NCBI RefSeq assembly: GCF_012927185.1
Contig: NZ_JABBGB010000002.1
Coordinates: 186,001 to 250,000 of the forward strand
Origin: Pseudoflavitalea sp. G-6-1-2
Lineage (GTDB): Bacteria; Bacteroidota; Bacteroidia; Chitinophagales; Chitinophagaceae
Length of the DNA stretch: 64,000 bases
Reading direction: 5' to 3'
In this document: one piece after another, positions 9,980 to 29,333 of the stretch
How the letters are laid out: each line of letters opens with the position of its first letter
Position numbering within the stretch: position 1 is the first letter of the stretch
Notes under the pieces: model-generated
Told to the model about the DNA's origin: nothing
The model's input: the letters and a program-made list of their open reading frames with translations, nothing else
Databases searched by the model: none
Made by a program: the position numbers and the translations under genes

Positions 9980-12340
9980 TTAATTGCTGTATACCTTAAA
10001 CTCGTGAATAGCTATGTAATTGCGCTCCGCATGCGGCAGCACTGTAATGCGCACCCAGCGTGCTTTTGCACTGCCCTTGTCTACATAACATGGGTTATGG
10101 GCCACTGTATTCTTTTGTTTGTCTGCAAATGTTTTCCAGTTCTTGTTATCGGTTGAATATTCGATGAGATACTGCGTTGGCTTACTGAAGTATTCCATCC
10201 AGCTTTCAACACGCGTGATATTCTTTACAGATCCGAGATCGATCTTAAGCCATTGCGCCACATCATGTTTTGCTGCATGCCATTTGGAGAGACTGTTGAT
10301 GTCCGTAGCAAACCATGCCTCCTGCGCCTGTCTGTCGGAAGACGCTGTGGTGGCTGCCCAGTCAGAAACGATCTTTCCTTCGTTAGGCGTGTAATTCAGT
10401 TTCAGGTTATCGAATTTAGCGATGTTGAAGCCAGATACATATCCCGAAGCGCCAAGCAGACAACTGTTATCGCGGATGCTCACTACACGCTGCTGATCGA
10501 TGTATCCTTCGATAAGATCTTTTTTGCAACTGAGTTTGAGGTTGTGCCAGACACCGGCTGTTGTTTTGCCTGATGCCAGTACGCTTGTTTTATTTTTCAG
10601 TTGCCAGCTGCCGTCTTTGAAGAGCATGAAACGGTATCCGAATGGAATCAGTGATTGTCCGCCTTTGTCGTATGCGGCGCGCATGATCAGTCCGGCATAA
10701 CCGGGACCATTGAATGCATCCTCATTCACGAATACATCCGATGAAATGCTTCCGTCTTCCCAATCTGTTCCCTGCGATACGTAGGTGAATGCACAGGAAT
10801 CCGGTATCCAGTGTGTGATATCATTGATCAGCGATTGCTGGAGATACTTGTTGCCACTGGCATCCTGCATTAGTTCAAAAGCACCGGAATTGTCGTAGAA
10901 ATATTTCGGAGACAAGGGTGCTCTGTCCATGGCATAACTATTGAAATCATCTGCATAGCTAGTCGGAAATACAGTCTGGGCGGGGATCTTGTGCGATCCT
11001 TTCTGTTGTCCTTTTGTGGTAGTGATGGTGTAGATGGCATTCGCCTCCAGCGTGATGCTGAATTTTCCGTTCACCGGTTTGAGTGCAGCCTGTTGAATGA
11101 ACTGTGCCTTGCTGTTCGATTTCCACACCTGCAATTGTTTTCCATTGAGATTGCTTACATCGAAATTCAGTTTCTGCGCTTCGCTGCCTGTAACCACAAC
11201 TATGCTGTAGTCGTTATTGCCATCGTTGCTTTTGTAAGTACAGATAGCACCATCATTGGCGAGCAGTCCGCATCCGCTGTTGAGATATTGCCAGCCGGGT
11301 TTTGCAAACTGATTGAAGTGTGCCACAGCCCAGATGGTTGGCCATACTTCGTAATAACCAGACCATGGACTAACGCCTTTCATGATGCCCACATTAGAGA
11401 AGCAACTATTATCGGGCATCGATGCAATGGGACACCAGAGATTTACTTTGGTGATCTGCTGCCTGATATAACAACGCAGTATATTCTTTGCGAGATAAGT
11501 GGTATTCTTCCATGGAGCGCCGGGAAGAGAAAAATCTTCTCCCGACCAGAGCGGAAGCTCTGTCTCGAAAGCTGTTTTGCCGGCGAGTTCCGTGCCTGGT
11601 CTCCACATATACGAATCAGGATAGTGGTAGCTTACACTGGTGATGGAGTTTCTGAAAACTGGATCTTTTACCAGTTCTTCGCAAATAGCCCATGCCCTGC
11701 CCGCTCCTTCGGGAGCGCCGATCTTTACGTGTGAGTATCCTCTTTTGTTGAGAGTTGGACGAAGTGTATCAACAATCCAGTTGCGGTCGTAAGTGCGTTC
11801 GTTCCAGCAACCTCCAATGTATTTCATGTTGAGGCCCCAGTGTTTGGCACCATCGATGAAAGTGGAGATGTAGTCTGCATTATCCTGTCCCCATATTTGT
11901 TTGAACCATCCCGGCATGGTCCATTCCAGTGCATCGAGTTCGATATTGGGATTGCGATCCGCGGCCATGCGCATGAGCCAGTATTCGTAACCTCTGTTGA
12001 AATTGGGATTTTTCATTTCCTCTTTCGTTCTCGCGAAGCTGGGTTCGGAGCCGCAGGTGGAATTGCCATCTCCGCCGATCTCAGTTTTGAGATACACGAA
12101 ACCCGCACCGAATCCGGGTTTGAAGAGATAGTCGAGTACATGGCTGCGATATGGTTCGGGATAATCGATCAGCAATCGGGAGGATGCTCCGGCACTTACA
12201 GCACCGATGCCTTCGAATATTCTTCCGTTGGATCGGCCATCGATACGAATGGTGGTGTCTTTGGGCTTTTGCTGCGCCAGATTAGCCGATGCAGTGAAAG
12301 TGCCCAGCAGTCCGATGAATAGTGAGGTGGTTCTTAACAT
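9980..12340 (-). CDS. GH59-like galactosidase (galactocerebrosidase family) with C-terminal CBM32-like domain
   Basis: 786 residues with a signal peptide (MLRTTSLFIG... ASANLAQ). The catalytic (beta/alpha)8 domain has LEWTMPGWF, GGCWNER with the probable acid/base Glu181, and WSGEDFS with the probable nucleophile Glu268, the pattern of GH59 galactocerebrosidases. A beta-sandwich follows, and about residues 645-786 form a discoidin/F5-8C-type carbohydrate-binding domain (ending IHEFKVY). GH59 enzymes release beta-galactose from galactosides. ATG 12340 is used because the upstream in-frame codon is TTG and the ATG gives the proper signal peptide. It lies six bases after the DUF5107 gene in the SusCD operon. 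Confidence 0.88.
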   Translation of the reverse strand: MLRTTSLFIGLLGTFTASANLAQQKPKDTTIRIDGRSNGRIFEGIGAVSAGASSRLLIDYPEPYRSHVLDYLFKPGFGAGFVYLKTEIGGDGNSTCGSEPSFARTKEEMKNPNFNRGYEYWLMRMAADRNPNIELDALEWTMPGWFKQIWGQDNADYISTFIDGAKHWGLNMKYIGGCWNERTYDRNWIVDTLRPTLNKRGYSHVKIGAPEGAGRAWAICEELVKDPVFRNSITSVSYHYPDSYMWRPGTELAGKTAFETELPLWSGEDFSLPGAPWKNTTYLAKNILRCYIRQQITKVNLWCPIASMPDNSCFSNVGIMKGVSPWSGYYEVWPTIWAVAHFNQFAKPGWQYLNSGCGLLANDGAICTYKSNDGNNDYSIVVVTGSEAQKLNFDVSNLNGKQLQVWKSNSKAQFIQQAALKPVNGKFSITLEANAIYTITTTKGQQKGSHKIPAQTVFPTSYADDFNSYAMDRAPLSPKYFYDNSGAFELMQDASGNKYLQQSLINDITHWIPDSCAFTYVSQGTDWEDGSISSDVFVNEDAFNGPGYAGLIMRAAYDKGGQSLIPFGYRFMLFKDGSWQLKNKTSVLASGKTTAGVWHNLKLSCKKDLIEGYIDQQRVVSIRDNSCLLGASGYVSGFNIAKFDNLKLNYTPNEGKIVSDWAATTASSDRQAQEAWFATDINSLSKWHAAKHDVAQWLKIDLGSVKNITRVESWMEYFSKPTQYLIEYSTDNKNWKTFADKQKNTVAHNPCYVDKGSAKARWVRITVLPHAERNYIAIHEFKVYSN

Positions 12341-12346
12341 TGGCAA

Positions 12347-15300
12347 TTACTTTTCTATGCTGAAATGTTGAAATCGGTTTTGTAAAAATGGAATCATGTT
12401 CCGGTGGATCATGGCTCCCTGATGATGTGCATCGCGTTTCAGTACATCGCTGAAATATTCCGATGCACGGTCCATATTGTTCAGTCCAAGTTCTCCGAGC
12501 CCTGTGAGGTAGTTGCAATGCAGCCTGTTCTTCTGGTTCAGATCCTGTTCAAATACCGCCAGGTCGGGCAAGGATACTGCAAAGTATTCAATTGAAACGG
12601 TATCATTCCAGTGTTGCAGTCCGAATTGAATCAGTTGATGGCAGATGGTCTTTGCCTTTTCGTTGTTGCCTGTTTCAAAATATGCGAGTGCCTGATAGAA
12701 TAACTGATCGGCGCTTGCATCGTTGTAATACATAGCCAGCGCGGGTTCCCCGGCTCCGGTAGTTGCTGCAGCAAAGCATAATTTAGCTTTGTCCTCCTCT
12801 CCTGTTGCCTGATAAATGATGCCTTTCAGATAGCTGATGGCATTAATCTGTGCATTGGGCAGTTTGCCTTCTCCGAGATTGGGCGGGTATTGGTCTGCAG
12901 CTTCCAGCAGTACCATCGCTTCTTTATATCGTTTTGCAAGGATGCTTCGCTTGGCAAGCTCGATATGACAACTGAGGTATTGTGAAATCACGCGACCCTC
13001 TCCTCCTTCCCATGGATGAAAGTTGCGGCTGAGAATGAGTTTTCTCGCAGTGGAATATTCGCCGAGGGAGTTGTACAGCGTGATCATTTCGAGATAGAGA
13101 TCATCGCGTTCTTCGGTGATGCTGAGATATTTTTTCAGTGTGGCAAGCCTGTCTGCTGCCGGGTAGTTAAGAATTTTGTAGAGCTGATCGAGTTCCATCA
13201 ACAGGCGTGCATCGTTCTCCTGCAATCCGAATGCGCGTTCCAGCAATTGCAGACAACGTTTCGGATTTTCGAGTTTGTTGAAGCAGGCCAGCGCAAGGTT
13301 GCGTAGTACGGTGGGGAACTGATCATCAAGTTCGATAGAATGTTCCCAGCACTGAATGGCTTCTGCATATTGCCTGCGTGCATACCATAGATTGCCGAAA
13401 TAATACCATGCTTTTGCATCGCTACTATTCAGTTGCAGCGCAGATTGCAGAATGATCTGTTCTTCAGATTTGTTAGGGAAACAGTAATCTGGTTTTTGCT
13501 GACTCGCCTGTTTGAAATATTGTACAGCACGTTCCGGATCATTCATTTGCTGATGCAGCCAGCCGAGGCAGTAAAGCACCATTGGGTAGATTTCTTTCTC
13601 TGCTCTGGTATGCAGTTGCAAAAGTGTCGCCGCCTCTTCATAGAAACCCGCATGCGCATAGTCGAGTGCGAATTCGAGGTATTGCTGCGGCATTGATTGT
13701 ATCAGGTGTTGCAGCTGTTCAGTAGAACTCACATCGTTGGTAAGCTGTGCTTGTTCGAACATACATCCGAAACTGAATGTATCCTGTTGCAATGCTTCTT
13801 TGATGCAGTTTTTGGCTTCATCCATCTTGCCTGTTTTGCGCAGCAATACTGCTTTCAGATGGCGTGCAGTGTGGCTCTCGGAATTGCGCACCAGTGAACG
13901 ACCAATATGCTGCAATGCAAGCGTGTACTCTTTTTTACGTGCTGCAAGGCGGGCGAGTTCGAGATAACCGCTGTGCTGGAATGCATCGTTCCAGATGGAT
14001 TTGTAGAACGCATCATATGCATCATCATACCGGCCCATCATGCGATAGCATAGACCGAGATTGTAATGCGATTCACCACTGTACGGATTGTTGTTGCGAT
14101 TGGTTAGGGTCTTTATGGCTCTTTGAAAATAAGGTAACGCCTGCTCAAATTGACCACGGCGAAGCAACAGCAATCCAACCGCATTGTTGGTGCGGCTGTC
14201 GCCGGGTTCGCGGCGCAATGCTTCTCTGTAATAATCCATCGGATCGAATGTGGCATGGCGATATTGTTCGAGATGAAGGCCGTGCAGGTAAAGTTCTTCC
14301 ACTGTGCTTACTTCAACAGGATCAGGGGCTGCAGTGGCAGCTGCGGGAACCGGACGTGCACTGAAGTCTTCCGCCTGATAACTGATGAGCAGTATCCCTG
14401 TATGGCTTCTTACTTCGAGCAGCAGATCAGTGGCTGCAATACCCGATGGAAGAAGCAATTCCGTAGTGAAGTATGTTTCAGGACTAAGATCTGTATCGAT
14501 TGCTGCAATGATTTCTTTACCGGCAAGCAAACGAACCGATGCATTCGCATATTCAGCCGTGGCATACACTCCAATGGTGGCTTTGTTGCCTTCGAGTTCG
14601 AGATTCACCATCGCTTCTTTCGCTGCATTCTTTACTGCACCGATACCGGCATAAGGCATGAAATACTGCTCGAATGTTTTTTCTTCATTGGGCTGCAGCC
14701 AGGCAAAGTCTGGTTGGTTTTCGGTGAACACGCCCGTCATCAGTTCGATGTACGGTCCATCTTCATCCGTAAGGTTTCTATCCCATGATAAACCAAAATC
14801 GCTGTTGCCCCAGGTCCATTGTTTTTTTCCGGGCGAAATATGATGATCAGCTACGTGCAGCATGCCGGCTTTTGTATCGTGCTCGTAACAACCGATGAAA
14901 TCGAATTTCGATTGCACCGCCATATACGAAGTGGGCACCGGGATATTTTTATAACGGGAAATATCTGTACCCGGTGCGTAATCCACTTTGTAATATACTC
15001 CCTTAGCTATCGGAAATTCGCTTACGTCCCGTTTGCCATGATCGAACACTGCATTTACATCCGGAGGAAATACACTCTGATAATGATCATTCACTTTCAC
15101 CGCAGGATTGGCCCACCACAGAAAAGTCTGTGGCAGGCTGCTGCGATTATGGATCTTTGCACGTATTTCGAGATAGGCTTTGTCCGGATGCAAAACAAAC
15201 CCTGCCATTCCTTTGGTATGACTCATCCTTTCAATCTCATTCACCCAAACCGTACTGCTTCCATCAGCATTGTTTTCGATGGTGTAGTTGGTAGGAGAAA

Positions 15301-15679
15301 ATGTACCGGGGCGATGATGCTGTGGCCAGTTGAACTCGATGCCGCCAGAGATCCATGGCCCGCAAAGCCCTACCAGTGCGGGTTTTATCACCTGATTGTA
15401 ATAGATGAAATGCCGCTGGCGGATCTTGTCGTAAGCCATCTGCACTCTCCCACCCAGCTCCGGCAAGATCATGATCTTCAAATATTTGTTTTCGAGATAG
15501 ATGGCTGTGTATTCTTTATCTTCCTTGGTATCACCGATCTTTTCGATCACGGGATAAGGATACACAGATCCGCTGCTTCCCTGATAAATGCGTTTCTCAA
15601 AAAACATTGGATGCTTCACGGGCTCTCCCACAGGATAGGTAGGTATCACCACTTTTTCTTCCCAGGCTCTGACGTTCAT
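12347..15679 (-). CDS. DUF5107 domain protein with TPR repeats
   Basis: 1110 residues with no signal peptide. Residues 1 to about 370 form the galactose-mutarotase-like DUF5107 domain (PELGGRV, GGIEFNWPQHH, WTWGNSDFG). From about 450 to the end there is a long array of tetratricopeptide repeats (for example AVGLLLLRRGQFEQALPYF). Proteins of this build accompany galactoside-degrading loci in Bacteroidota. The mutarotase-like fold suggests sugar binding or hydrolysis, but the activity is not established here. It lies between SusD and the GH59-like gene. Confidence 0.88.
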   Translation of the reverse strand: MNVRAWEEKVVIPTYPVGEPVKHPMFFEKRIYQGSSGSVYPYPVIEKIGDTKEDKEYTAIYLENKYLKIMILPELGGRVQMAYDKIRQRHFIYYNQVIKPALVGLCGPWISGGIEFNWPQHHRPGTFSPTNYTIENNADGSSTVWVNEIERMSHTKGMAGFVLHPDKAYLEIRAKIHNRSSLPQTFLWWANPAVKVNDHYQSVFPPDVNAVFDHGKRDVSEFPIAKGVYYKVDYAPGTDISRYKNIPVPTSYMAVQSKFDFIGCYEHDTKAGMLHVADHHISPGKKQWTWGNSDFGLSWDRNLTDEDGPYIELMTGVFTENQPDFAWLQPNEEKTFEQYFMPYAGIGAVKNAAKEAMVNLELEGNKATIGVYATAEYANASVRLLAGKEIIAAIDTDLSPETYFTTELLLPSGIAATDLLLEVRSHTGILLISYQAEDFSARPVPAAATAAPDPVEVSTVEELYLHGLHLEQYRHATFDPMDYYREALRREPGDSRTNNAVGLLLLRRGQFEQALPYFQRAIKTLTNRNNNPYSGESHYNLGLCYRMMGRYDDAYDAFYKSIWNDAFQHSGYLELARLAARKKEYTLALQHIGRSLVRNSESHTARHLKAVLLRKTGKMDEAKNCIKEALQQDTFSFGCMFEQAQLTNDVSSTEQLQHLIQSMPQQYLEFALDYAHAGFYEEAATLLQLHTRAEKEIYPMVLYCLGWLHQQMNDPERAVQYFKQASQQKPDYCFPNKSEEQIILQSALQLNSSDAKAWYYFGNLWYARRQYAEAIQCWEHSIELDDQFPTVLRNLALACFNKLENPKRCLQLLERAFGLQENDARLLMELDQLYKILNYPAADRLATLKKYLSITEERDDLYLEMITLYNSLGEYSTARKLILSRNFHPWEGGEGRVISQYLSCHIELAKRSILAKRYKEAMVLLEAADQYPPNLGEGKLPNAQINAISYLKGIIYQATGEEDKAKLCFAAATTGAGEPALAMYYNDASADQLFYQALAYFETGNNEKAKTICHQLIQFGLQHWNDTVSIEYFAVSLPDLAVFEQDLNQKNRLHCNYLTGLGELGLNNMDRASEYFSDVLKRDAHHQGAMIHRNMIPFLQNRFQHFSIEK

Positions 15680-15714: not shown

Positions 15715-17361
15715 TTACCAGAATGGATTCTGTGCAAGCTTTCCCTGATACAGCGCGATCTCTCTGGTTGGTAAGGGACGGAGATAATGTTTCTTAGGAT
15801 CGAAGCTTCTGGCAGAAGCAGGTTGTGCAATGAGAAAACCATCTGCATCGGTTCTGCTCTGATAGCTTGCGCCGTTGTATGGAGCGATGGTTTGCCAGTC
15901 GTTTCCTTTTATTTTGATGCCTCTGATAGCCTGCGTCATTTCTGTTTCGGCAGTTTTCCAGCGACGGATATCATTGTAGCGGAAACCTTCGAGTGCCAGC
16001 TCGATATTGCGTTCGCGGCGGATCTCGGTACGCAGATCGAGACCGTTGCGGGTGATGAATGCATTGGTCATCGCAGGCATGTTGACGCGTGAACGGATGA
16101 GGTTGATGCTTTTGTTCATGTCTGCATCACTGAGTGCTCCGGTTCTTTCGAAGGTTGCTTCTGCATAGATCAGCAGCACTTCCGCGTAGCGGATGATATG
16201 ATTGTCATACCCGAAATTGACGCCATTGTTGGTATTGCCGTATACGTTCTCAGAAATGTATTTGTACGTGATGTAACCCGTATTGCCATTGCGTTGTGGC
16301 GAGTTAGGCCAGTTCACTATCGGCGTAATGGGGTTGAACGGACGAAGAATGGAAGTACCCGGAATTACCATCGTCATGGTCATGCGCGGATCACGATCGA
16401 TGTACTCCGATGAAATGGTTCCATATCCCTTGAAGTATGGAGACGCAGTAATGGGCAGCCCGTCTTTGCAGAGATACATATCCGCGAGTTTGCGTGTAGG
16501 CAGATAGCAGGTTGCATCGATGGAATAAGGAAAGCCTTGTCCGTCTACATTCACTTCATATCTTCTGTCGAGGATGCATTCGCTGGAGTTATCACCTTCT
16601 TCGATGAAGAGATAACGATAGCTCTGTGCGCCTTTGCCGGTGAACAGGCTGTACTGATTTCCACTCATCACATCATTGGCTGCACTGATAGCGATATCGA
16701 GGTACTTGTTTGCATCGCCATCGGAATGGAATTTGCTCCAGGTGCCTTCGAAGAGCGCTACGCGCGCACGCAATGCATCTGCAGTTCCTTTAGTGATCCT
16801 TCCCTGATCGTCGTTGATGAGTGCATCTCTGGAAGGCAGATCCTGTGCGGCTTCTGTGAGATCTTTGATGATGAGGTCCGCTGTTTCCTTTCTCGATGCT
16901 CTCGCCTGATACAGTACAGGATCTTCAACAGTGGGCACGGTAGTGATGAGGGGCACTCCGCCGAACAGTTCCAGCAGGCTCCAGTAATTGTAGGCACGGA
17001 AGAATTTTGCTTCCGCTACAAACCGTTTGATGCCGGGGTCTGTTTTGCCTTCGCTCTTGGCAACAAGATTATTGGCGATGCGGATATAGTAGTAAGCGTT
17101 GTTCCAGTCCCCAGAGGTTTCAGGAGGCAGGTAAGTGCCATCGCTGATGGAGTTGGCGGTATTGAATGCAATATCCGATTGGGTATCGTTGAAATTGAGT
17201 CCTTCCAGAGAAGGATACAATGCGTTCGCTCCCAGTTTGAAGTCTGCTGCATTTCTGTAGAATGTAGCATCGGAGAGCGTATCCTTGGGTTTGAGATCAA
17301 GCGCTTTGTTGCAGCTTCCCAAAGCCAGGGCGAATATGGAGAGATGGATGATCCTTTTCAT
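15715..17361 (-). CDS. SusD/RagB-family surface glycan-binding lipoprotein
   Basis: 548 residues beginning with a lipoprotein signal (IFALALGSCNKAL, lipid-anchored Cys17). The TPR-type helices and the long C-terminal segment with RRWKTAETEM and HYLRPLPTREIALYQG are typical of SusD/RagB proteins, which sit on the cell surface as a lid over the SusC barrel and capture oligosaccharides. It follows the SusC gene by 21 bases. Confidence 0.95.
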   Translation of the reverse strand: MKRIIHLSIFALALGSCNKALDLKPKDTLSDATFYRNAADFKLGANALYPSLEGLNFNDTQSDIAFNTANSISDGTYLPPETSGDWNNAYYYIRIANNLVAKSEGKTDPGIKRFVAEAKFFRAYNYWSLLELFGGVPLITTVPTVEDPVLYQARASRKETADLIIKDLTEAAQDLPSRDALINDDQGRITKGTADALRARVALFEGTWSKFHSDGDANKYLDIAISAANDVMSGNQYSLFTGKGAQSYRYLFIEEGDNSSECILDRRYEVNVDGQGFPYSIDATCYLPTRKLADMYLCKDGLPITASPYFKGYGTISSEYIDRDPRMTMTMVIPGTSILRPFNPITPIVNWPNSPQRNGNTGYITYKYISENVYGNTNNGVNFGYDNHIIRYAEVLLIYAEATFERTGALSDADMNKSINLIRSRVNMPAMTNAFITRNGLDLRTEIRRERNIELALEGFRYNDIRRWKTAETEMTQAIRGIKIKGNDWQTIAPYNGASYQSRTDADGFLIAQPASARSFDPKKHYLRPLPTREIALYQGKLAQNPFW

Positions 17362-17382: not shown

Positions 17383-20300
17383 TTAGAACTTGATGTTTAC
17401 GCCGATGGAGGTTACTTTGGTGAACGGGTAAGTTTGTTCATCCTGTCTCTGCCATCCTTCTTCAGGATCGAAGGAATTGTTCCATGTTCCTTTTGAAATG
17501 GTGAAGAGATCCTGTCCGCTCAGATACACTCTGGCGCTGCTGAGACGGAGTTTTTTGCAGAGTTCACCAGGTAAATTGTATCCTACTGTGATCACTTTGA
17601 AACGCAGATAAGCGAGGTTGTTGATCCGCATGCTGCTCGACTGCCAGTTGTAGTTGTAAATATTGTCGAAGCCCACTGCACCGGGAATCAGGCGAGGATA
17701 CTGTGCTCCGGTATTTTCCGGCGTCCAGGATTTGCCATAGAAATAATCGAGCGGCTGAAAGTAAATGGCGCTCATGGGTGTAGCGAATGATCCGGTACGC
17801 ATGTTCACCTGTTTGCCTACGCCTTGTATCAGTACATTCAGGTCGAATGCGCCGTAAGCGAGACTGATATTGGACGAATAAGTGTATCGTGGCAACACGG
17901 TTCCGAGATATTTCAGATCACCTTTCGATCCTTTAGTGGGATCGCCGTAGGGCGTGAGTTTTCCATCTCCGTCGATGTCTTTGAACATCATATCTCCTAC
18001 TCCGATATTGGAAGGCACATTGCCGAGTTGTTTGTAAGCAGCCAGCTGCTCTGCATTCTGGATGATGCCGTTTGCTTCGTATCCGAAATAGCTGTTGATG
18101 GGATAACCTTTGTGCGTGTAGTTGAGTCCCATGCTCAGTACGTCGTTGCCTTTCAGTTCAATCAGTTTGTTATTGATATCGCTGAGCATAGCGGTAACGC
18201 TGTAGCGGAATTTGCCGATCTGATCTTTCCAGCCGAGTGTGAACTCAAATCCTTTGGTGGAAAGCACTCCAAGGTTTTGTGTGGGTGCACTGCCACCGAG
18301 TGTAGCAGGCACCTGCACATTCACCAGCATGTTCTTGTTCTTTTTTTCGTAGATGTCGAGGCTACCGGTGAGGCGGTTGTCGAGGAATCCGAAATCGATG
18401 CCGAGGTTGGTGGTCTCCAGTGTTTCCCATGTTCTGGTGGTGGAAGCGATTTCCGAAACTGCACCCGGTGTTTTGGTGTTGGGACTGCCGAGTGGATAAC
18501 TGCCACCTACTGAGATCAGCGGAATGTAGCCGTAGTTGCTGAATGCTCCGATCTCCTGATTGCCCGATTGTCCCCACGATGCACGCAGCTTCAGGTGGCT
18601 CAGCCATTTGAGACGCTCCATGAATTTTTCCTGCGTGATGGTGTATGCAGCCATCACAGCGGGGAATGCCGCGCTCCAGCGTTTGTCTGGTGAGAACTTG
18701 GAGCTGCCGTCTACACGGATGGTTGCATCGAGGAACAGTTTGTTGTCGTATGCATAAGTGAACCTGCTGAAGTAGGAAGCCAGCGCCCAGTCTGTGTTTC
18801 CGCCACCGATACCCATGTAGTCTGCCTTGGTTTTATCGGCGAGATTGAGGGTGAAGATCTCATTACCCACGAAATTGGAGCCGGTTACTTCGATATTCTC
18901 TTTCTGGAATTTTTCGAGTGAAGTACCTGCCATCAGACTCAGCTGGTGAACATTGGCAATGGTTCTTCCATATTCGATAAAGCCCGAATACGTATGGTAG
19001 ATGTCTTTCTGACTCAGGTAGTAGGCGGAGTTCAGCGGGTTTCTTTGTCCCTGCAGTCCACCTTCGTAATTATAGAGATCGAAAGTACGGGTAATGGCTT
19101 TGTCGTTGTAGTTGTTGATATTGATGCCGGCGAGGCCCGTTACTTTCAGTCCTTTGACGATCTCGGCATCCATTTTTACGTTGAACGAAAAATTATTGCT
19201 GCCGTATTTTCTTGTGCCGCCTTCATCGAGCTGCTGTGCCGGGTTTACGTATCCCTGATATGTGTAATACTGTCCCAGCGGGTTATGCAGCGGAATGAAG
19301 TTGAAAGTGCGTGGCAGGTTCGACATCATGTCTTTCCACAGCGTTGGTTCCGTTACTTCTTCGTACACGTAGCTGTTGCGGGTCTGCACATTGATCTTGT
19401 TCAGGATCTTGAAATCGTAGTTCATGCGCAGGTTGTAGCGATCTGCATGATTGCTGCCGTATTTGAAAACGCCATTGTCTTTAAGGTATCCACCGGAGAA
19501 AAGATACGCGCTGTTCTCTCCGCCACCGGTTACGCTAATGTTATGCGATTGCTGCATGGCATTGCCGTAGAGGATATCGTTCCAGTTATTGTCTGTATAA
19601 AAACCGGGGTAATCGTGCAGGTAGGTAACCCATCCTTTATCGGGATCGGGTGCTGCTTTGTCTTTGATCTTTTTGAATACTTCATCAGACACACCGGGCA
19701 GTCCTACATTGGTGAGCGACTCATGCGTCATTTCAGCGAATTGTTGGGTGGTGGTTACCTTCTTGAGATAAGAAGGTGTTTTACGGCCAACGTTGCCGGA
19801 ATAGTTTACAGTGGGTGCACCGCTCTTGCCTCTTTTGGTGGTAACGAGAATAACGCCATCGGCAGCGCGTGCTCCGTAGATGGAAGCGGCGGCATCTTTG
19901 AGAACAGTAAGATTTGCGATGTCGTCCGGATTAATGGAATTGAGATCGCCCGCTACTCCATCGATGAGGATGAGCGGCTTGTTTCCGTTCACGGATGAGT
20001 AGCCGCGGATCTGCAGATCGTAACCCTGACTGCCGGGAGCGCCACTTCCGCGCATTACGGTGAGTCCGGGTATGGCTCCCTGCAAAGCAGTAGCGGTGTT
20101 CACGATAGGACGTGATTCGAAAGCTTTATTGTCTATCTGTGAGATAGCTCCTGTAACAGAGGATTTGGTTTTGTTGGCGTATCCAACAACAACGATCTCT
20201 TTGAGAGAAGCGTTCTTGTCTTTGAGATACACATTGATGGTGCTGCGGCCCGCAATGATCTCTTCTTTTGCAGCGAGGCCTACGTAATTGAATACAAGCA

Positions 20301-20586
20301 CACCCTGCCTTGCAGCAACGGGAATGGAGAATGTTCCATCTTCTTTGGAAGTAGTGCCTGTACCCGATCCTTTCAGTTGAATGCTCACGCCGGACAGCGG
20401 AGCACCTGCATTGTCGTACACGGTGCCCGTTACACGGAGCGAATCTTGCCTGAAAAAATTGTTGTGTTCGGGAGGAGTTGAAGGGGCTGCCTGTAATGAG
20501 GCAGATGCAAGCAGCAGAGAAAAGAACATACCGGCAGCAGTTCCGATGATGCATCCTTTTCCGCTTTCTGGCAGTTGTTGGTTCAT
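17383..20586 (-). CDS. SusC/RagA-family TonB-dependent transporter
   Basis: 1067 residues. A signal peptide is followed by a carboxypeptidase-regulatory-like domain (VTGTVYDNAGAPLSGVSI), the TonB box/plug region (KEIVVVGYA, then QIRGYSSVNGNKPLILIDG) and the plug motif LKDAAASIYGARAADGVILVTT, then a large beta-barrel ending in a C-terminal Phe. It imports oligosaccharides with the SusD partner downstream. ATG 20586 is chosen because it gives a normal signal peptide, and the longer frame would run into the promoter. A -7 box lies at 20628-20635. Confidence 0.95.
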   Translation of the reverse strand: MNQQLPESGKGCIIGTAAGMFFSLLLASASLQAAPSTPPEHNNFFRQDSLRVTGTVYDNAGAPLSGVSIQLKGSGTGTTSKEDGTFSIPVAARQGVLVFNYVGLAAKEEIIAGRSTINVYLKDKNASLKEIVVVGYANKTKSSVTGAISQIDNKAFESRPIVNTATALQGAIPGLTVMRGSGAPGSQGYDLQIRGYSSVNGNKPLILIDGVAGDLNSINPDDIANLTVLKDAAASIYGARAADGVILVTTKRGKSGAPTVNYSGNVGRKTPSYLKKVTTTQQFAEMTHESLTNVGLPGVSDEVFKKIKDKAAPDPDKGWVTYLHDYPGFYTDNNWNDILYGNAMQQSHNISVTGGGENSAYLFSGGYLKDNGVFKYGSNHADRYNLRMNYDFKILNKINVQTRNSYVYEEVTEPTLWKDMMSNLPRTFNFIPLHNPLGQYYTYQGYVNPAQQLDEGGTRKYGSNNFSFNVKMDAEIVKGLKVTGLAGININNYNDKAITRTFDLYNYEGGLQGQRNPLNSAYYLSQKDIYHTYSGFIEYGRTIANVHQLSLMAGTSLEKFQKENIEVTGSNFVGNEIFTLNLADKTKADYMGIGGGNTDWALASYFSRFTYAYDNKLFLDATIRVDGSSKFSPDKRWSAAFPAVMAAYTITQEKFMERLKWLSHLKLRASWGQSGNQEIGAFSNYGYIPLISVGGSYPLGSPNTKTPGAVSEIASTTRTWETLETTNLGIDFGFLDNRLTGSLDIYEKKNKNMLVNVQVPATLGGSAPTQNLGVLSTKGFEFTLGWKDQIGKFRYSVTAMLSDINNKLIELKGNDVLSMGLNYTHKGYPINSYFGYEANGIIQNAEQLAAYKQLGNVPSNIGVGDMMFKDIDGDGKLTPYGDPTKGSKGDLKYLGTVLPRYTYSSNISLAYGAFDLNVLIQGVGKQVNMRTGSFATPMSAIYFQPLDYFYGKSWTPENTGAQYPRLIPGAVGFDNIYNYNWQSSSMRINNLAYLRFKVITVGYNLPGELCKKLRLSSARVYLSGQDLFTISKGTWNNSFDPEEGWQRQDEQTYPFTKVTSIGVNIKF

Positions 20587-20627: not shown

Positions 20628-20635
20628 CAAAATTA
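20628..20635 (-). promoter_or_regulatory. -7 promoter box for the SusC operon
   Basis: The minus strand reads TAATTTTG, a perfect TAnnTTTG. No TTTG is seen at the -33 position. Instead an ATGGAC repeat lies there, which fits an activator-dependent promoter. Confidence 0.5.
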
Positions 20636-20656
20636 ACCGGACACTCAATTTTAAAA

Positions 20657-20686
20657 ATGGACAGTAATTCTAAAATGATGGACTAT
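20657..20686. promoter_or_regulatory. Probable AraC operator: two direct ATGGAC repeats 21 bp apart
   Basis: ATGGAC begins at 20657 and again at 20678, two helical turns apart, and both are followed by a similar A+T-rich tract ending in ATTCTAA. The second copy is inside the 10-mer GATGGACTAT (20677-20686), which recurs at 21628-21637 and 22988-22997. With the -7 box at 20628 the repeats sit near -38 and -60 of the SusC start, as AraC-type activators bind. Confidence 0.6.
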
Positions 20687-20723
20687 ATTCTAATGCTTTC
20701 ACTTATTATTGTACACGAAAACG

Positions 20724-21626
20724 ATGCCTGCTATGATGGAAAAGAAAAAAGATGGATTCCAGGGACAGAAAGCGATAGTGCTTCCTGCCAGCATCACATT
20801 GCAGTATTGTCATAAGAATCCGGTGATAGCAGGAGCTTATATCACTGATATCGGATACTATCCCAAGGCCCGGTTCCACTACAGAGTAAGGCAAAAGGGG
20901 ATCGATCAGCATATACTGGTGTACAATACAGAAGGCGAAGGATGGGTGGAGATCGGCGATGAAAAATATGAGATCCATCCGGGAGATTTCTTCATTGTTC
21001 CTGCCGGCAGGAACAATTGTTATGCGGCCGATGAAAAGAAACCATGGACAATCTACTGGATACATTTCAAAGGGGCTGTGGCAGATGCAGCAGTGAAATC
21101 TTTCTGGACAAAAACAGGATCATGGAAAGGCAGTGTGCGTTTCAATCAGCAGCGCATTGCACTCTTCGACAATATGTACAAACATCTCGAGCGTGGATAC
21201 GGGCAGGACAATCTCACTTTTGTGAACATGATGCTCCCGCATTTTCTTTCATCTTTCTTCTTTGATGTGTTCAATGATACAGATGAAGAAGATGGCTCGC
21301 AGGATATCGTTAATCGTTCCATTCTTTACATGCAGGAAAATATCCGGGAAACGCTGAGTCTCGAGAATCTGGCGGCGCAGGTGAATGTATCGGTATCACA
21401 TTATTCAAATCTGTTCAGAAAGAAATCGGGCTTCTCTCCTATTGAATATTTTAATCATCTGAAAATTCAGAAAGCCTGTCAGTACCTGCAGTTCACGGAT
21501 CTTCGGATAAAGGAGATAGCGGGAAATATCGGCGTGGAAGATCCTTATTATTTCTCCCGGTTATTTACCAAAGTGATGAGCATATCACCCAAAGAATACA
21601 GGGCGAGGTTTAACTATAAAATGTAA
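20724..21626 (+). CDS. AraC-family transcriptional regulator of the PUL
   Basis: About 300 residues. An N-terminal cupin sugar-sensing domain (GEGWVEIGDEKYEIHPGDFF, then IVPAGRNN) is followed by a C-terminal double helix-turn-helix (ENLAAQVNVSVSHYSNLFRK and IAGNIGVEDPYYFSRLFTK, with SPKEYR). It is divergent from the SusC gene and directly precedes the MFS porter and the glycosidase. It probably senses a sugar released by the locus and activates it through the GATGGACTAT sites. ATGs at 20724, 20733 and 20736 are all possible starts. Confidence 0.92.
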   Translation: MPAMMEKKKDGFQGQKAIVLPASITLQYCHKNPVIAGAYITDIGYYPKARFHYRVRQKGIDQHILVYNTEGEGWVEIGDEKYEIHPGDFFIVPAGRNNCYAADEKKPWTIYWIHFKGAVADAAVKSFWTKTGSWKGSVRFNQQRIALFDNMYKHLERGYGQDNLTFVNMMLPHFLSSFFFDVFNDTDEEDGSQDIVNRSILYMQENIRETLSLENLAAQVNVSVSHYSNLFRKKSGFSPIEYFNHLKIQKACQYLQFTDLRIKEIAGNIGVEDPYYFSRLFTKVMSISPKEYRARFNYKM

Positions 21627-21627
21627 A

Positions 21628-21637
21628 ATAGTCCATC
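21628..21637 (-). promoter_or_regulatory. GATGGACTAT site upstream of the MFS gene
   Basis: The minus strand carries an exact copy of the 10-mer found at 20677-20686, ending 30 bases before the MFS start. A GATGGA copy on the same strand lies next to it (21641-21646). Confidence 0.55.
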
Positions 21638-21667
21638 CCTTCCATCGGATATTGCATTTTTTGCCTG

Positions 21668-22984
21668 ATGGAAGAAAATAACTTTGTGCAGCAACAACGA
21701 TTTCAGGCCTCACAAACTAACAGCTATATGAATCGCCAACCCGCCTACCCCATGTTGATCAGTATCGTGGCTGCCCTCGGTGGACTGCTCTTCGGTTTTG
21801 ATTTTGCTATCTTCTCAGGAACTATTCCTTTCTTACAACCACATTTTGGATTATCGGATGCAGAGCTGGGATTTACCAGCAGCTCGATCTATATCGGATG
21901 TATTGCAGGTAGTTTGAGTACAGGGTATCTGGCAGACAGATTCGGCAGAAAGATGCCGTTGATCGCATCAGCAGTGATCTTCGCCATCTCGGCTGTTGCA
22001 ATGGGACTGGCAAGTACGAATGCAAATCTCATTATTGCACGTGTTGTTGCAGGGGCGGCTGTGGGAGCGGCTTCTATGTTGTCTCCACTGTACATTGCGG
22101 AGATATGTCCGGCCCATATACGCGGAAGAATGGTGTCGGTAAATCAACTGGCGATTGTGGTAGGCATATTGCTGGCATATGTGAGCAGTTACCTGCTGGC
22201 TGATCAGACAAATAACTGGAGGTGGATGTTTGCTTCGGCAGCATTGCCTGCAACGATATTCTTTGTATCTGCATTGTTTCTTCCGGAGAGTCCGCGATGG
22301 TTGCAGCAACGTGGGCAGACAAAATCAAATACAGAAAAATCTTCTCTTGCTGCGCTCGTAAAACCGGGTATGCTGCTGATAGTTGGAGTTGGTGTAACAG
22401 TGGCGGTGTTTCAACAGATCTCCGGAGCCAATGTGGTGTTCGTATATGCACCGATCATTTTTGCAAAGGCAGGAATGGATGTGAGCAATCAGTTGTTTCA
22501 GCAGGTACTGATCGGGTTGGTGAATCTGGTATTCACACTGCTTTCGATGCGATTGGTAGATAAGATCGGAAGACGCAGTCTGCTGCTGATCGGAAGCATC
22601 GGCATGAGTATTATGCTGGCAGCCATTGCAGGTGCCTTCTACTTCAATCTGCTGCAGGGCCCGCTGGTGACTATTCTGGTGTTGATATTGATTGCGATTT
22701 ATGCCACTACCCTAGCACCGGTGACCTGGGTGTTGATTGCAGAAATATTTCCAAATGCTATCCGTGGTGTGGCAGTGTCTGTGGCAACAACAGCCTTGTG
22801 GGTGGCGTGTTTTGGAGTGGTGTATCTGTTTCCGGTGCTCACCAGTTATTTCGGGGATAAAGCCTATTATAATTTCCTTGTATTCGCATTCATTTGTTTA
22901 GTATATTTTCTGTTCATATTGAAGTATGTACCTGAAACCAAGGGCAAGACGCTTGAAGAAATTGAAGCGAAATTGTTAGCATAG
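21668..22984 (+). CDS. MFS sugar porter (sugar/proton symporter family)
   Basis: 438 residues of the sugar porter family with 12 hydrophobic segments. Marks are GGLLFGFDFAIFSG in TM1, ADRFGRK after TM2, PESPRWL after TM6, DKIGRRSLLLIG in the second half and PETKGKTLEEIE at the end. It carries a monosaccharide across the inner membrane, probably the galactose or other sugar freed by the PUL enzymes. A second ATG at 21728 would remove a 20-residue polar tail. It lies 41 bases after the AraC gene. Confidence 0.92.
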   Translation: MEENNFVQQQRFQASQTNSYMNRQPAYPMLISIVAALGGLLFGFDFAIFSGTIPFLQPHFGLSDAELGFTSSSIYIGCIAGSLSTGYLADRFGRKMPLIASAVIFAISAVAMGLASTNANLIIARVVAGAAVGAASMLSPLYIAEICPAHIRGRMVSVNQLAIVVGILLAYVSSYLLADQTNNWRWMFASAALPATIFFVSALFLPESPRWLQQRGQTKSNTEKSSLAALVKPGMLLIVGVGVTVAVFQQISGANVVFVYAPIIFAKAGMDVSNQLFQQVLIGLVNLVFTLLSMRLVDKIGRRSLLLIGSIGMSIMLAAIAGAFYFNLLQGPLVTILVLILIAIYATTLAPVTWVLIAEIFPNAIRGVAVSVATTALWVACFGVVYLFPVLTSYFGDKAYYNFLVFAFICLVYFLFILKYVPETKGKTLEEIEAKLLA

Positions 22985-22987
22985 GTA

Positions 22988-22997
22988 GATGGACTAT
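22988..22997 (+). promoter_or_regulatory. GATGGACTAT site upstream of the glycosidase gene
   Basis: Exact copy of the 10-mer of the AraC/SusC region, 33 bases before the ATG at 23031. It contains the ATG of a possible longer start (22989), which is a further reason to prefer 23031. Confidence 0.55.
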
Positions 22998-23030
22998 CAA
23001 CTTCATTCATCATCAATAATTCTTTCTGCA

Positions 23031-24380
23031 ATGTTAAAACCTGCCTTGTTCTTTTTTGCGGCCATAAGTTTTGCTGGCAATGCAATTGCTCAGCAACAAA
23101 ACGATAAAGTGGTTACCCAAAGAACAATCAACGACCCTTTAAATGAACCTTCACTGGTTGAAGCCCGGAAAAAAGTAATTTCTTATTTGTTAGCGTCTGG
23201 TCCTGTAAAACAAATGGCTGAAAAGCTGATCAGCAGCGGTTTTACAGCAGGTGATGGATATGGTGAAGTGTGGATCAGGGATCTCAATACTTTCATCGAT
23301 GTGGCCTGTGAAGTGAACGACCGGCAAATCATCAAAAAACATCTGCTCACCTTTCTGAAGTTTCAGCAAGCCGATGGTGGTATTCTCGATGGATACATAC
23401 CCATTGCAAAAGCAGGAGGCGGCTACAAATATTATCACTCTGGGCTTGCGCCTGAATATGCAGGACATAAGAACACAGTAGAAACAGATCAGGAAACATC
23501 GCTGGTGCAGGCGATCGCAAAGTACATCCGCAACACAAAAGATAAATCGATACTCACTGATACTGTAAATGGAAAAACAGTTCAGCAGGGATTGGAAGAT
23601 GCCCTGAACTTCCTCATTCAAAAAAGATGGACTGAAAAATACGGCCTGATCTGGGGAGCCACCACCGTTGACTGGGGCGATGTTCAGCCCGAACACGACT
23701 GGGGAGTGGAACTCGACAGCAGCTCACATCTCACCATCGATATCTACGATAATGCGATGTTTGTGATTGCGATCAATGATTTGCTGGAGATCGGCAAGCT
23801 CTCTGGAAAACAGCGCGGTTACTGGAAAAACATCAAAGAGAAACTGAGCACCAATATCAGGCAACATCTCTGGGACAGTAAGAATCAGAAATTTGTTCCG
23901 CATATTTATTTGAATGGATCGCCCTTCCCTGCTTCATTTGATGAGAATGCAATTTACTATCATGGCGGAACTGCGATCGCCATCGAAGCAGGATTGCTGA
24001 GCAAGCAGGAAATAAAAACATCTTACCTGAAAATGCAGGAGAATGTAAAAGCTGCAAACGCAGCAACAATCGGACTGACTATTTACCCGGTATATCCCGA
24101 GGGGTATTTCAAAAATAAAGGTATGGGACCATGGAGTTACCAGAATGGTGGCGACTGGACATGGTTTGGTGGTCGAATGGTGCAGCAGCTGCTCCGGAAC
24201 GATATGCTGAATTATGCGTTGGATGCGTTGCAGCCGATGTTGGATCGTGTGATAAAGAACAATGGGTTTTATGAGTGGTATACTCCGGCAAATGAGCCCA
24301 AGGGGTCATCGAGCTTCAGAGGTGAAGCGGGTGTTTTGTGGACGGTGATCAGAGAAATGGAAAAGAAAATAAAGAAGTAG
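23031..24380 (+). CDS. Secreted six-hairpin glycosidase (glycogen-debranching-like)
   Basis: 449 residues with a signal peptide (MLKPALFFFAAISFAGNAIA). The protein is an (alpha/alpha)6 barrel of the broad GH15/GH37/GH63/debranching type: EVWIRDLNTF, TVETDQETSLVQA, WGATTVDWGD and NGGDWTWFGGRM are the conserved patches, with candidate acidic residues in WIRD and VETDQE. I cannot assign a CAZy family from sequence alone. It follows the sugar porter gene and has the shared GATGGACTAT site in front, so it should act with the GH59-like enzyme of this locus. Confidence 0.82.
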   Translation: MLKPALFFFAAISFAGNAIAQQQNDKVVTQRTINDPLNEPSLVEARKKVISYLLASGPVKQMAEKLISSGFTAGDGYGEVWIRDLNTFIDVACEVNDRQIIKKHLLTFLKFQQADGGILDGYIPIAKAGGGYKYYHSGLAPEYAGHKNTVETDQETSLVQAIAKYIRNTKDKSILTDTVNGKTVQQGLEDALNFLIQKRWTEKYGLIWGATTVDWGDVQPEHDWGVELDSSSHLTIDIYDNAMFVIAINDLLEIGKLSGKQRGYWKNIKEKLSTNIRQHLWDSKNQKFVPHIYLNGSPFPASFDENAIYYHGGTAIAIEAGLLSKQEIKTSYLKMQENVKAANAATIGLTIYPVYPEGYFKNKGMGPWSYQNGGDWTWFGGRMVQQLLRNDMLNYALDALQPMLDRVIKNNGFYEWYTPANEPKGSSSFRGEAGVLWTVIREMEKKIKK

Positions 24381-24438: not shown

Positions 24439-24869
24439 GTATTCAGGATGTTTTGAATGACAACTAGTCTTCACAGTTACCAGCGAGATAACGCAGTTAA
24501 ATAATTAATATTTATTTTAAATCAGCATAATTGTTAATTTGCCTAAATTAGCGTTCTGGAACATTACCATTGAACCTAATCTGATTCGTTGTGAATAACA
24601 CTTTAAGCCTAACCCCAACGGCAGTCTGTGCTACAACTGCTGTACAGGAGATTTCTCCTGCATTGAAACTACACTCAGCATTCCCTCTACTATTTACTGG
24701 CCATATCAAAAAACAACTTCCATTGCTGATGGTGTGACTTCCTTTTTCAATAAACAGGAATTAGCGCTATACAGTTATCGGTATTAAAACAGATTTCTAT
24801 TACTTCTGGATATCCTGAGTTATTTACGGGTGTCCCGGAAAGTTGTTTATTAAATTAAGTTTTACTTCT
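24439..24869. other. A+T-rich intergenic region, possible gene remnant
   Basis: 431 bases with no supported gene. The stretch 24599-24784 on the plus strand is open for 62 codons without a start codon. Its translation contains a Cys-rich patch (LCYNCCTGDFSC) and looks protein-like, so it could be a decayed gene. The first 150 bases are very A+T-rich and probably hold the promoter for the large gene at 24870; no exact TAnnTTTG box was found. Confidence 0.35.
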
Positions 24870-27800
24870 ATGAAGAAATTCTACATCAGACTTTGTGTGA
24901 TTGTTTTGTTGTTTATGCAGATTTGTGATTTTACGCAGGCCCAGAACAATTATATATTGCCACAGGTAACGCCAAGATCGCCAGAGGCCGCAGCTTTTGA
25001 GAAATATACAGAGATGCCGGTTTCGCTATCCAACGGTACTGTTAATCTCAGCATCCCTTTATACACTATCAGATCGGGTTCACTTGAAATTCCTGTTACA
25101 CTTTCATTCAATAGTAATGGAGTTAAGAATGACGAAATCCCCAGTTATGTAGGAATGGGATGGAGCATTCAGGCTGGTGGAGTGATCAACTATCAGCAAC
25201 GTGGTTTGAATGATTATGATGGAGAAGGACCAGGTCTTAAGGTGGGATTATTGTATAGAAATTCAAGATATAATGCATTGGATTCTTTGAAGAGATTTCT
25301 TCGAAGGGAAATGAGTGCAGAAGACAAGAAGGGTTACCTTGATAGTGTTACCAGAATGATGGTGGATGGCGAGTTCGACTATTACTCCTATTCCTTTCCT
25401 GGCGGCTCAGGAGGTTTCTACTCTGATACAAACCGTAATTGGATAATAACTCCCAAATCGGACATAAAACTTGAGAAATTGAGAGGTGAACTTACCTTCA
25501 GGATAACCGATCAGAAGGGTACCAAATGGGAATTTGGACCAGCTGACTTGAACCAAAGCCTCGAAGAGTATGATTCTCTCGCTACATTAAGACCTGACTT
25601 TACCGGTAGTGCCAGCGTATATCTGGATAAAGTAGTTTCATCCGATAACAGAGAAATCAGGTTTAATTACAGCTACTCTACAATCCTTTATAAAACCCTT
25701 ACTGGCTCTCTCACTGTAGTTACGCGTCGTAATACACCGGAATGTCCTACGAATGATTATCATATCAGCCGTAACAATACCATGCTCTATAACCACATGC
25801 TGACTTCTATTGAATGGGATGGTGGCCGAATCGAATTTGAATTGAGCGAAGATAGCAGACAGGATATCAGGAAGCTTACAGCAGGGTCCTATGGCCCATC
25901 CTATCTGAGTAAAATGAAAGTGTATGACATCAGTAATAAATTAATTACCGAGTACAGTTTTAAATACACCAATGGGAACAGGTTGCGTTTAGATCAGGTA
26001 GAAAAAAAGGATTCCTCAGGAAATCCTGCTGTCTGGAAATTTGAATATATGAAAGAGTCATTGCCCGACTTGTTTTCTAAGGCTAAAGACCATTGGGGAT
26101 ATGCAGGTTCAGGCAATGGAATTCCTTATGCAAATTATAGCAGGCTGTTAAGAGATGATTGGATGCCTGGATTGGGTACCTGGGTAGGGCCATCCAAAGA
26201 AAGCAATGATAATAGCCAGGGAGGTCTTATCAGAAAAGTTACCTATCCTACTGGTGGGAGCTCTGTATTCGAATATGAAAGCAATGCTATTACTTTCACT
26301 GATCCGATACAGTTGGTTAATAAACCCTTTTTCACACGTCCTTTCCCTACTCAGAATATAACGCTGGTTCATGAAGGTACCAGCGATGTTCATGACATAA
26401 TCACGGGCTCCTTTACACTTGCAGAAAACACAGAGGTGGATATTGCCGCTTTCATGGAGCAAGATCCCCGCAATTTCATCAAGTCTTTCATCAGCTTAAA
26501 TAAGTCAGACGGTCCGAATTTGCTGGCCTCAGGTCCATTAGCGATTCCATGTGGTCCTTTATCCTGTCAACTCACTACCAGAACAACGCTTTTAGCAGGT
26601 ACCTATTATTATGAACTGAGGCGGCAGCAGGATGAAACCTTCAGAGATGGCAGTGCTTCGTTGAAAATTTCGAAAGTAGTCTATCAGCCAAAGTTTTCCT
26701 ATGAGGTCGGAGGATATCGTATTAAATCTGTAAGGAATAACGATAGTGTAGGCAACAGTACATTTAAGAGCTACTCTTATGTTGATCATATAGATAGTGT
26801 AGGGAATGTTAATGTGCCTCATTATATTTCATCCCTGCGTTATTATTTTAGACCACTTAAGGGAGCTGGCTGTGATATTTGTGGAAACAAAGCAACCATT
26901 ACAGAAGAAAGTGTGGCGCCGATGACCGGTAATCCTGTTGAGTACATTTATGTAACGGAGTATGATGATATAAGTGGCGAAAAGGGCAAGATTGATTACA
27001 CCTTTACGCCAACTATTAATTGGCATTCAGGAAGAGCCCCCTGGTTAAGTCCATTCAAACTTAGCTGGAAAGCGGGATTGCTCAAGAACAAAAAACAATA
27101 TCGATGGACTGGTACAAATTATGATCTTGTTCAATTGGATTCTACGGAATACGAAACAGTCGGAGTAGTTGAAGGGAAATCCAAAGGAGTAAAAGCAGAG
27201 TACAGTTCGTATTGTTCATATAAGGGAATCGGTGATCTTACTTCTTTCTCCTACCAGGAGCCAGTGCTTTTCACTGAAATATTTCATTCAAAGAGTCAGT
27301 CGAAGGCTTACTATTCTGATGGTGGGCAACTATTGTCGGGAGTAGTAAATATCTATGGATCTTCTAAACATAGACTAGCCACTGAAACACATACAGTAAG
27401 CAGCAATGGTGATACTATGAAAGAAATTGTCAGATACTCTTTCGATTACGACACAACCCTAGTAACGGGAAAAGAAGCTATGGCTATCCGTCACTTGCAG
27501 AGAAAGAATATTCTGGTTCCTATTGAAAAAATCTCTGTTAGGAAAAGTGGAGGCAGCGAATTTATTACGTACGCAGTATTGACTACTTATAAATCCGATA
27601 CCGCTGCCGTAGACAGGGTTTTTGAATATTCCGTATTAACACCCGTGTTATATAATGGATTTGCCAATAGCTCCATCAGCGGCGGTAATCTTGCTAAAGA
27701 CAGCCGGTACGAGGAATCAGCAAGATTTGTGCTCTATGATGATAAACATAATATGCTGCAAACGCAGTCGCGCGGAGGGTTCAATAAAGCCTATCTCTGG

Positions 27801-29288: not shown

Positions 29289-29333
29289 TCATTCCGATAC
29301 AGCTGTATTCTTTATCCTTTAATTCTTATTATT

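Follow-up and report, generated by a model that had tools for sequence, protein, structure and literature searches.

Predicted operators of an AraC-type regulator at a SusCD, sugar porter and glycosidase locus of Pseudoflavitalea sp. G-6-1-2

Introduction

At the araBAD promoter, AraC of E. coli acts at araI1-I2, two direct half-sites 21 bp apart, of which the half distal to the promoter is the stronger and the proximal half the weaker. Operators of AraC-type regulators built as 21-bp direct repeats are already known from Bacteroides: the cited parts of PMC3870299 describe direct repeats with 21-bp periodicity for RhaR and AraC-family rhamnose regulators, and those of PMC3878776 describe direct repeats averaging 21 bp for the regulons of hybrid two-component system (HTCS) regulators, which have an AraC-type DNA-binding domain and SusC/SusD and glycosidase targets. 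Among the titles and abstract openings of the open-access literature, we recognised no paper that describes the operator reported here.

We analysed a 64,000-nucleotide stretch of Pseudoflavitalea sp. G-6-1-2 DNA (here denoted the window), in which a gene for an AraC-type regulator lies between susC and a sugar porter gene. We propose with good confidence, from the sequences, that two sites flanking the regulator gene are operators of this adjacent activator, predicted to drive susC-susD-DUF5107-GH59 and the porter, and that a third copy of their core is coincidental. The two sites share with araI1-I2 21-bp direct half-sites with a strong distal and a weak proximal half; they differ from the E. 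coli system in their Bacteroidota-type promoter and in their predicted SusCD, porter and glycosidase targets, and an araO2-like site is not supported. Set side by side with Bacteroides RhaR by description, the likeness lies in the AraC family and the 21-bp direct repeats; the RhaR targets are rhamnose genes. What began as a 10-mer seen by eye thereby becomes a testable regulon, with operators, promoters, an orientation, start-codon corrections and probable operons of the SusCD locus.

Results and Discussion

The regulator and the genes around it

The regulator gene (20724..21626, + strand) encodes a 300-residue protein with the domains of the AraC/XylS family, an N-terminal AraC-like ligand-binding cupin domain (Pfam AraC_binding, 6e-14) and a C-terminal double helix-turn-helix domain (HTH_18, 4e-19; HTH_AraC, 1.2e-18 in two stretches), whose solved relatives include AraC 2k9s and 1bl0. 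NCBIfam PRK10572 (AraC) matched over residues 55-297 at 110 bits, under the family cut-off of 208, and we rejected the assignment as an orthologue of E. coli AraC. Assignment as a hybrid two-component system protein was also rejected, the protein differing from the Bacteroides HTCS regulators in that Pfam found cupin and helix-turn-helix domains only, with no kinase or sensor domain.

On the - strand, to the left of the regulator gene, lie susC (17383..20586), encoding a TonB-dependent porter (Pfam Plug and CarbopepD_reg_2), and susD (15715..17361; SusD_RagB, 3.7e-44). They are followed by a gene for a DUF5107 and TPR protein (12347..15679; DUF5107, 2.8e-56), which is probably in the susC operon, with a gap of 35 nt to susD, and by a gene for a GH59 glycosidase with an F5/8 type C domain (9980..12346; Glyco_hydro_59, 1.4e-94), which would be the last gene of this probable operon. 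On the + strand, to the right, are the MFS sugar porter gene (21728..22984; Pfam Sugar_tr, 6.7e-102; NCBIfam TIGR00879, 341.7 bits with a cut-off of 237.8) and a gene for a putative secreted glycosidase (23031..24380). The latter protein is weakly like GH100/MGH1, with Pfam matches below the cut-offs and no NCBIfam match, and possibly represents a poorly described glycosidase family; its ATG at 23031 was chosen for a signal-peptide-like start. A gap of 46 nt separates it from the MFS stop codon, and the two genes are likely transcribed together. Homologues of this glycosidase at E<=1e-40 were found in 4 of 58 relatives, the genome of the window not counted.

The 10-mer on its own

The 10-mer GATGGACTAT occurs exactly at 20677-20686 (+), 21628-21637 (-) and 22988-22997 (+), as given in the preliminary description, and nowhere else in the window. 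All three copies had been called intergenic. This holds for the first two sites, and for site 3 it depends on the glycosidase start chosen, as the copy is intergenic if the gene begins at ATG 23031; the longest frame begins at ATG 22989, within the 10-mer. The accompanying argument, that three copies within 2.3 kb are very unlikely by chance, ignores that all 10-mers were looked over. The window holds 10 different 10-mers with at least three copies inside 2321 bp, compared with a mean of 2.5 (sd 1.7, range 0-7) in 40 third-order Markov simulations, so that clustering alone is weak evidence; with 10 such triplets against a simulated maximum of 7, the statement that chance cannot explain three copies in 2.3 kb was dropped as it stood. 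Nor is the 10-mer enriched in the genome, since a genome-wide search gave 13 copies against 24 for a reversed control pattern. Open frames of 639 nt or more contain nine of the 10 other genomic copies; the remaining one (L013) is covered by a 192-nt frame only.

A conserved two-half element upstream of AraC relatives

A search with the AraC protein yielded 80 loci, among which genomes very near that of the window may be missing. Three loci (L083, L089 and L092), in which the match begins at regulator residues 38-44 and at most 6 nt from the locus end, were left out. On up to 300 bp upstream of the AraC relatives in the remaining 77 loci we fitted a 44-bp matrix, with the window excluded from training, and 65 of the 77 upstream regions contributed to it. 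The matrix consists of half-sites of the form ATAG... and ATGGAY... 21 bp apart, and the regulators of these relatives are 44-58% identical to that of the window. When each upstream region was subjected to 20 single-base shuffles, the maximum reached by the matrix was 8.7. Twelve of the 77 relatives lacked an upstream match above 8 bits; most of them carry a site elsewhere in the locus, and L021, L033 and L088 have none above 18 bits. In total, 95 sites above 18 bits were spread over 74 of the 77 loci, many of them from related species and thus not independent events.

Applied to the window, the matrix placed its two best matches, among about 128,000 positions, on either side of the regulator gene, at 25.6 bits (site 1) and 22.7 bits (site 2); the third position scored 1.0, a gap of more than 20 bits. 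Site 1 is at most 30/44 and site 2 at most 29/44 identical to any training site. Predicted operator 1 (20654..20697) is assigned to susC on the - strand, its ATGGAC word reading on the + strand, and its half-sites start at 20657 (ATGGACAGTAATTCTAA, promoter-proximal) and 20678 (ATGGACTATATTCTAAT, promoter-distal). Predicted operator 2 (21617..21660) is assigned to the MFS porter on the + strand; its ATGGAC word reads on the - strand, where the half-sites start at 21636 (ATGGAC, distal) and 21657 (ATGCAA, proximal). In both the half-sites are 21 bp apart, and the promoter-proximal halves are weak (2.7 and 4.3 bits). Rather than a 10-mer, the full operator is an element of about 40 bp made up of two half-sites, and the earlier view that the 10-mer is the operator of the adjacent AraC protein survives in the form that it is the core of a likely operator at sites 1 and 2, as judged by the matrix, and not at site 3.

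For a search of the window's own genome (6.1 Mb) we built a 72-column profile that includes the promoter box, from 67 of 70 listed sites, the last three being left out; the list excludes L028, sites below 20 bits and sites more than 88% identical to another. Site 1 was recovered at E=1.8e-5 and site 2 at E=6.7e-4, and they were the only sites at E<0.01 (150 of 2345 first-look candidates scored). Of six weaker matches in this genome, the first three (E=0.08, 0.49 and 1.2) are all within coding frames. The profile replaced a degenerate pattern of our own making, which had given no match in this genome and was too strict, even site 1 falling outside it. Half-sites in direct repeat, spaced by about two helical turns, are a trait of the AraC/XylS family; sites 1 and 2 and the 67-site alignment of relatives all show them, at 21 bp.

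A second set of 25 loci, from another search and with the window's genome left out, gave 16 sites above 8 bits in 14 loci, 27-36 of their 44 positions being identical to the nearest training site. The other 11 loci had no site above 8 bits, including L097 and L101, whose regulators are 54 and 50% identical. Across 244 genomes of the family, own genome included, 106 have a profile match at E<=0.01. We then compared family genomes among the matches listed in both searches, leaving out the window's genome and G002. At E<=1e-4, a threshold picked after seeing the data, the operator was found in 13 of the 17 genomes that have the regulator (E<=1e-60) and in 0 of the 17 that lack it (Fisher p=5e-6); at E<=0.01 the counts were 15 of 17 and 2 of 17 (G009 and G014). 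This co-occurrence could partly reflect genome size or ancestry.

These comparisons bear on whether the element could instead serve an AraC paralogue, a hybrid two-component system or some further regulator, the adjacent AraC gene being a mere neighbour. A similar element also stands at loci of regulators only 36-42% identical to that of the window (L111, L113, L118 and L119), and the Bacteroides HTCS regulators also use direct repeats, averaging 21 bp, as the cited part of PMC3878776 has it. The helix-turn-helix residues that hardly vary among the 56 relatives whose upstream site is strong are equally conserved in the 12 without one, so that recognition-helix residues do not separate the two groups. 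Against a different regulator, the element is upstream of the regulator's relative in 65 of 77 loci and co-occurs with the regulator across genomes, and the only two significant sites of the window's genome are both at this locus. We consider a different regulator very unlikely and take the adjacent AraC-type protein as the probable ligand of sites 1 and 2.

Support for the operators comes from comparative genomics and covers two of the three copies of the 10-mer. What the DNA itself shows is an element of two halves that is conserved, points one way and keeps a fixed distance from the -7 box.

Promoter geometry and orientation

A TAnnTTTG box at -12 to -5 is described for Flavobacterium in the cited part of PMC9723704. 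Exact boxes of this form lie 18 nt from each operator: TAATTTTG at 20628..20635 (-), the predicted -7 box of the susC promoter, and TAACTTTG at 21679..21686 (+), the predicted -7 box of the MFS promoter. The first matrix did not include the box, yet it is exact at offset 18 for both sites. As the window holds 26 exact TAnnTTTG boxes on both strands, the probability that both sites would have one at offset 18 or 19 by chance is about 2e-7. Among the 95 sites of the relatives, 9 have a box with no more than one mismatch at offset 18 and 56 have one at offset 19, together 65 of 95, and no other offset holds more than 4 boxes; in the second locus set, 13 of 16 sites have such a box at offset 18 or 19. 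The geometry from operator to promoter is unusually clear, and because the distance is fixed, contact between the activator and the Bacteroidota sigma factor can be put to a direct test. At offset 19 the box of the relatives often begins with GA, not TA. Exact boxes number 5 at offset 18 and 5 at offset 19, although offset 18 is much the rarer (9 versus 56); box spacing and box strength may trade off.

With the box at -12 to -5 (PMC9723704, cited part), the operator would end at about -31 from the predicted start sites, where an activator with its proximal half over the -33/-35 region would be expected to end. Counted from the boxes, the transcripts should start at about 20623 (-) and 21691 (+), and if SusC begins at ATG 20586 and the porter gene at ATG 21728, both leaders would be about 37 nt long. 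The predicted promoter makes ATG 20586 a likelier start of SusC than TTG 20616. For the porter, ATG 21668 falls before the predicted -7 box and would precede the transcript, which favours ATG 21728 as the start.

The element is directional, with the -7 box on one fixed side of it. Thirty of the 95 sites (in 23 loci, with 29 distinct 44-mers) were not counted as AraC-upstream. At all 30 of them the nearest gene on the predicted side reads away from the site, and the gene on the other side diverges at 7 of 30; the genes in these counts are open frames called by script, and related species give similar sites. One of the 30, L082, is actually a site before AraC in reversed orientation, and without it the count is 29/29. 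The AraC-upstream sites obey the rule in 62 of 65 cases; no gene was called at two, and one (L028) is contrary. The rule assigns site 1 to susC and site 2 to the porter. The claim of the preliminary description that the motif ties the porter and the glycosidase to the SusCD operon is supported for the porter and not supported for site 3 in front of the glycosidase. Genome G013 has a similar layout, with one operator between AraC and the porter and a second upstream of AraC serving DUF5107; both have an exact box at offset 18, yet score only 16 and 18 bits.

Orientation and spacing also bear on the sign of regulation. Weak -7-like boxes stand on the AraC side of the sites as well, most often at offset 2 (12/65), and therefore any effect on araC could be repressive. 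That the sites serve repression and not activation is nevertheless unlikely in our judgement, because the element stops upstream of the -7 box without overlapping it and the distance between the two is fixed, which is the geometry of an activator that contacts polymerase.

We infer that the AraC protein binds both sites, activates rather than represses, and acts on two operons in response to a signal. In each operator the two direct half-sites, spaced by two helical turns (21 bp), share one face of the DNA; the conserved ATGGAC half is away from the promoter, and the weaker half adjoins the promoter where a -33 element would be. On a sugar signal, a dimer of the AraC-type protein would occupy the two halves and, like AraC at araBAD, bring RNA polymerase to the -7 box, which lies 18 nt from the operator, switching on susC-susD-DUF5107-GH59 leftwards and the MFS porter and the following glycosidase rightwards.

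The third copy of the 10-mer

We judge the third copy (22988..22997, +) to be coincidental and not an operator. Its strong half reaches 6.0 bits, at rank 11 of 127,914, and its second half -36.9 bits; it is oriented against the rule for the gene on its right. The 60 nt on the predicted side hold no -7 box with one mismatch or fewer, and the region 22900-23040 has no exact TAnnTTTG and a single one-mismatch box, at 22902, inside the MFS gene.

If all three copies were operators, as first proposed, the glycosidase would have its own AraC-controlled promoter. The exact 10-mer does lie 4 nt past the MFS stop and ahead of the likely glycosidase start; a third copy within 2.3 kb is itself improbable, about 0.004 at the genomic rate by our own arithmetic; and in one relative, G013 (L165), a homologue of the glycosidase stands no more than about 3 kb from an operator of 30 bits, though the rule assigns that operator to another gene. 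Weighed against this are the missing second half and the low score of the strong half, a direction that contradicts a rule kept at 30 of 30 sites, and the lack of a -7 box. In related genomes, the two-half element is kept upstream of AraC relatives, and the 10-mer is absent from both strands in all six homologous glycosidase loci (L129-L134, from 4 other genomes). A separate glycosidase operator is accordingly quite improbable.

AraC itself loops between separated half-sites, and site 3 might be a lone half-site for DNA looping with site 1 or 2, like araO2 of E. coli. Its core is intact, at 15.2 bits over columns 23-31, the same as in sites 1 and 2. Lone strong half-sites in the regulon loci, however, number 46 against 26 +/- 14 in 40 permuted controls (range 4-59), which is no clear enrichment, and the 10-mer is missing from the six glycosidase loci of relatives for this role too, making looping the most improbable of these explanations. 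Coincidence remains our reading of site 3, with a small chance left for function of any kind.

Predicted targets in relatives and the possible signal

The predicted operons after the 95 sites comprise 263 genes: homologues of DUF5107 (57), the porter (39), SusC (35), SusD (23) and AraC (7), and 102 genes unlike the window genes. The DUF5107-TPR protein is the most frequent recognised partner of the regulator, present in 57 of 77 loci, and the operator regulon ties this family to sugar-porter and glycosidase genes. In the open-access literature we found nothing on DUF5107 beyond work on marine stramenopiles; a role in substrate breakdown would be worth testing. None of the 77 loci has a homologue of the window glycosidase or of the GH59 protein at E<=1e-8.

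Judged by representatives, with one to three members scanned per cluster, the other targets are GH2 (15), aldose 1-epimerase (8), GH36 (4) and SusD (4), with 2 each of GH30, GH95, GDSL, sodium:solute symporter, enolase-like protein and short-chain dehydrogenase. The largest cluster unlike the window genes holds 33 proteins of 692-807 aa (including L034:832-3054 and L041:5345-7597); of three members scanned, those of L041 and L034 had no Pfam match and that of L070 matched Melibiase_C below the cut-off. A predicted target of 812 aa in L025 also had no match when scanned. GH97 (L085) and DUF4955 (L019) were rejected as targets, lying on the far side of the operator as mere neighbours.

Because GH36, GH2 and aldose 1-epimerase are among the relatives' predicted targets and GH59 is in the window, our guess is that the signal is a galactoside; the symporter-dehydrogenase-enolase operons (L056 and L093) and GH95 also fit another sugar. 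More tentatively, and with rather less than even confidence, one AraC-type group might run a galactoside regulon across several Bacteroidota orders (relatives in Chitinophaga, Pedobacter, Dyadobacter and Flavobacterium), through a rigid 21-bp repeat and a -7 box at 18-19 nt whose first T is often degenerate (GAnnTTTG), the bound protein replacing the -33 element.

Elsewhere in the window, the region 24843-33527 holds two very large open frames (1481 and 1397 aa) that look Rhs/YD-repeat-like by eye.
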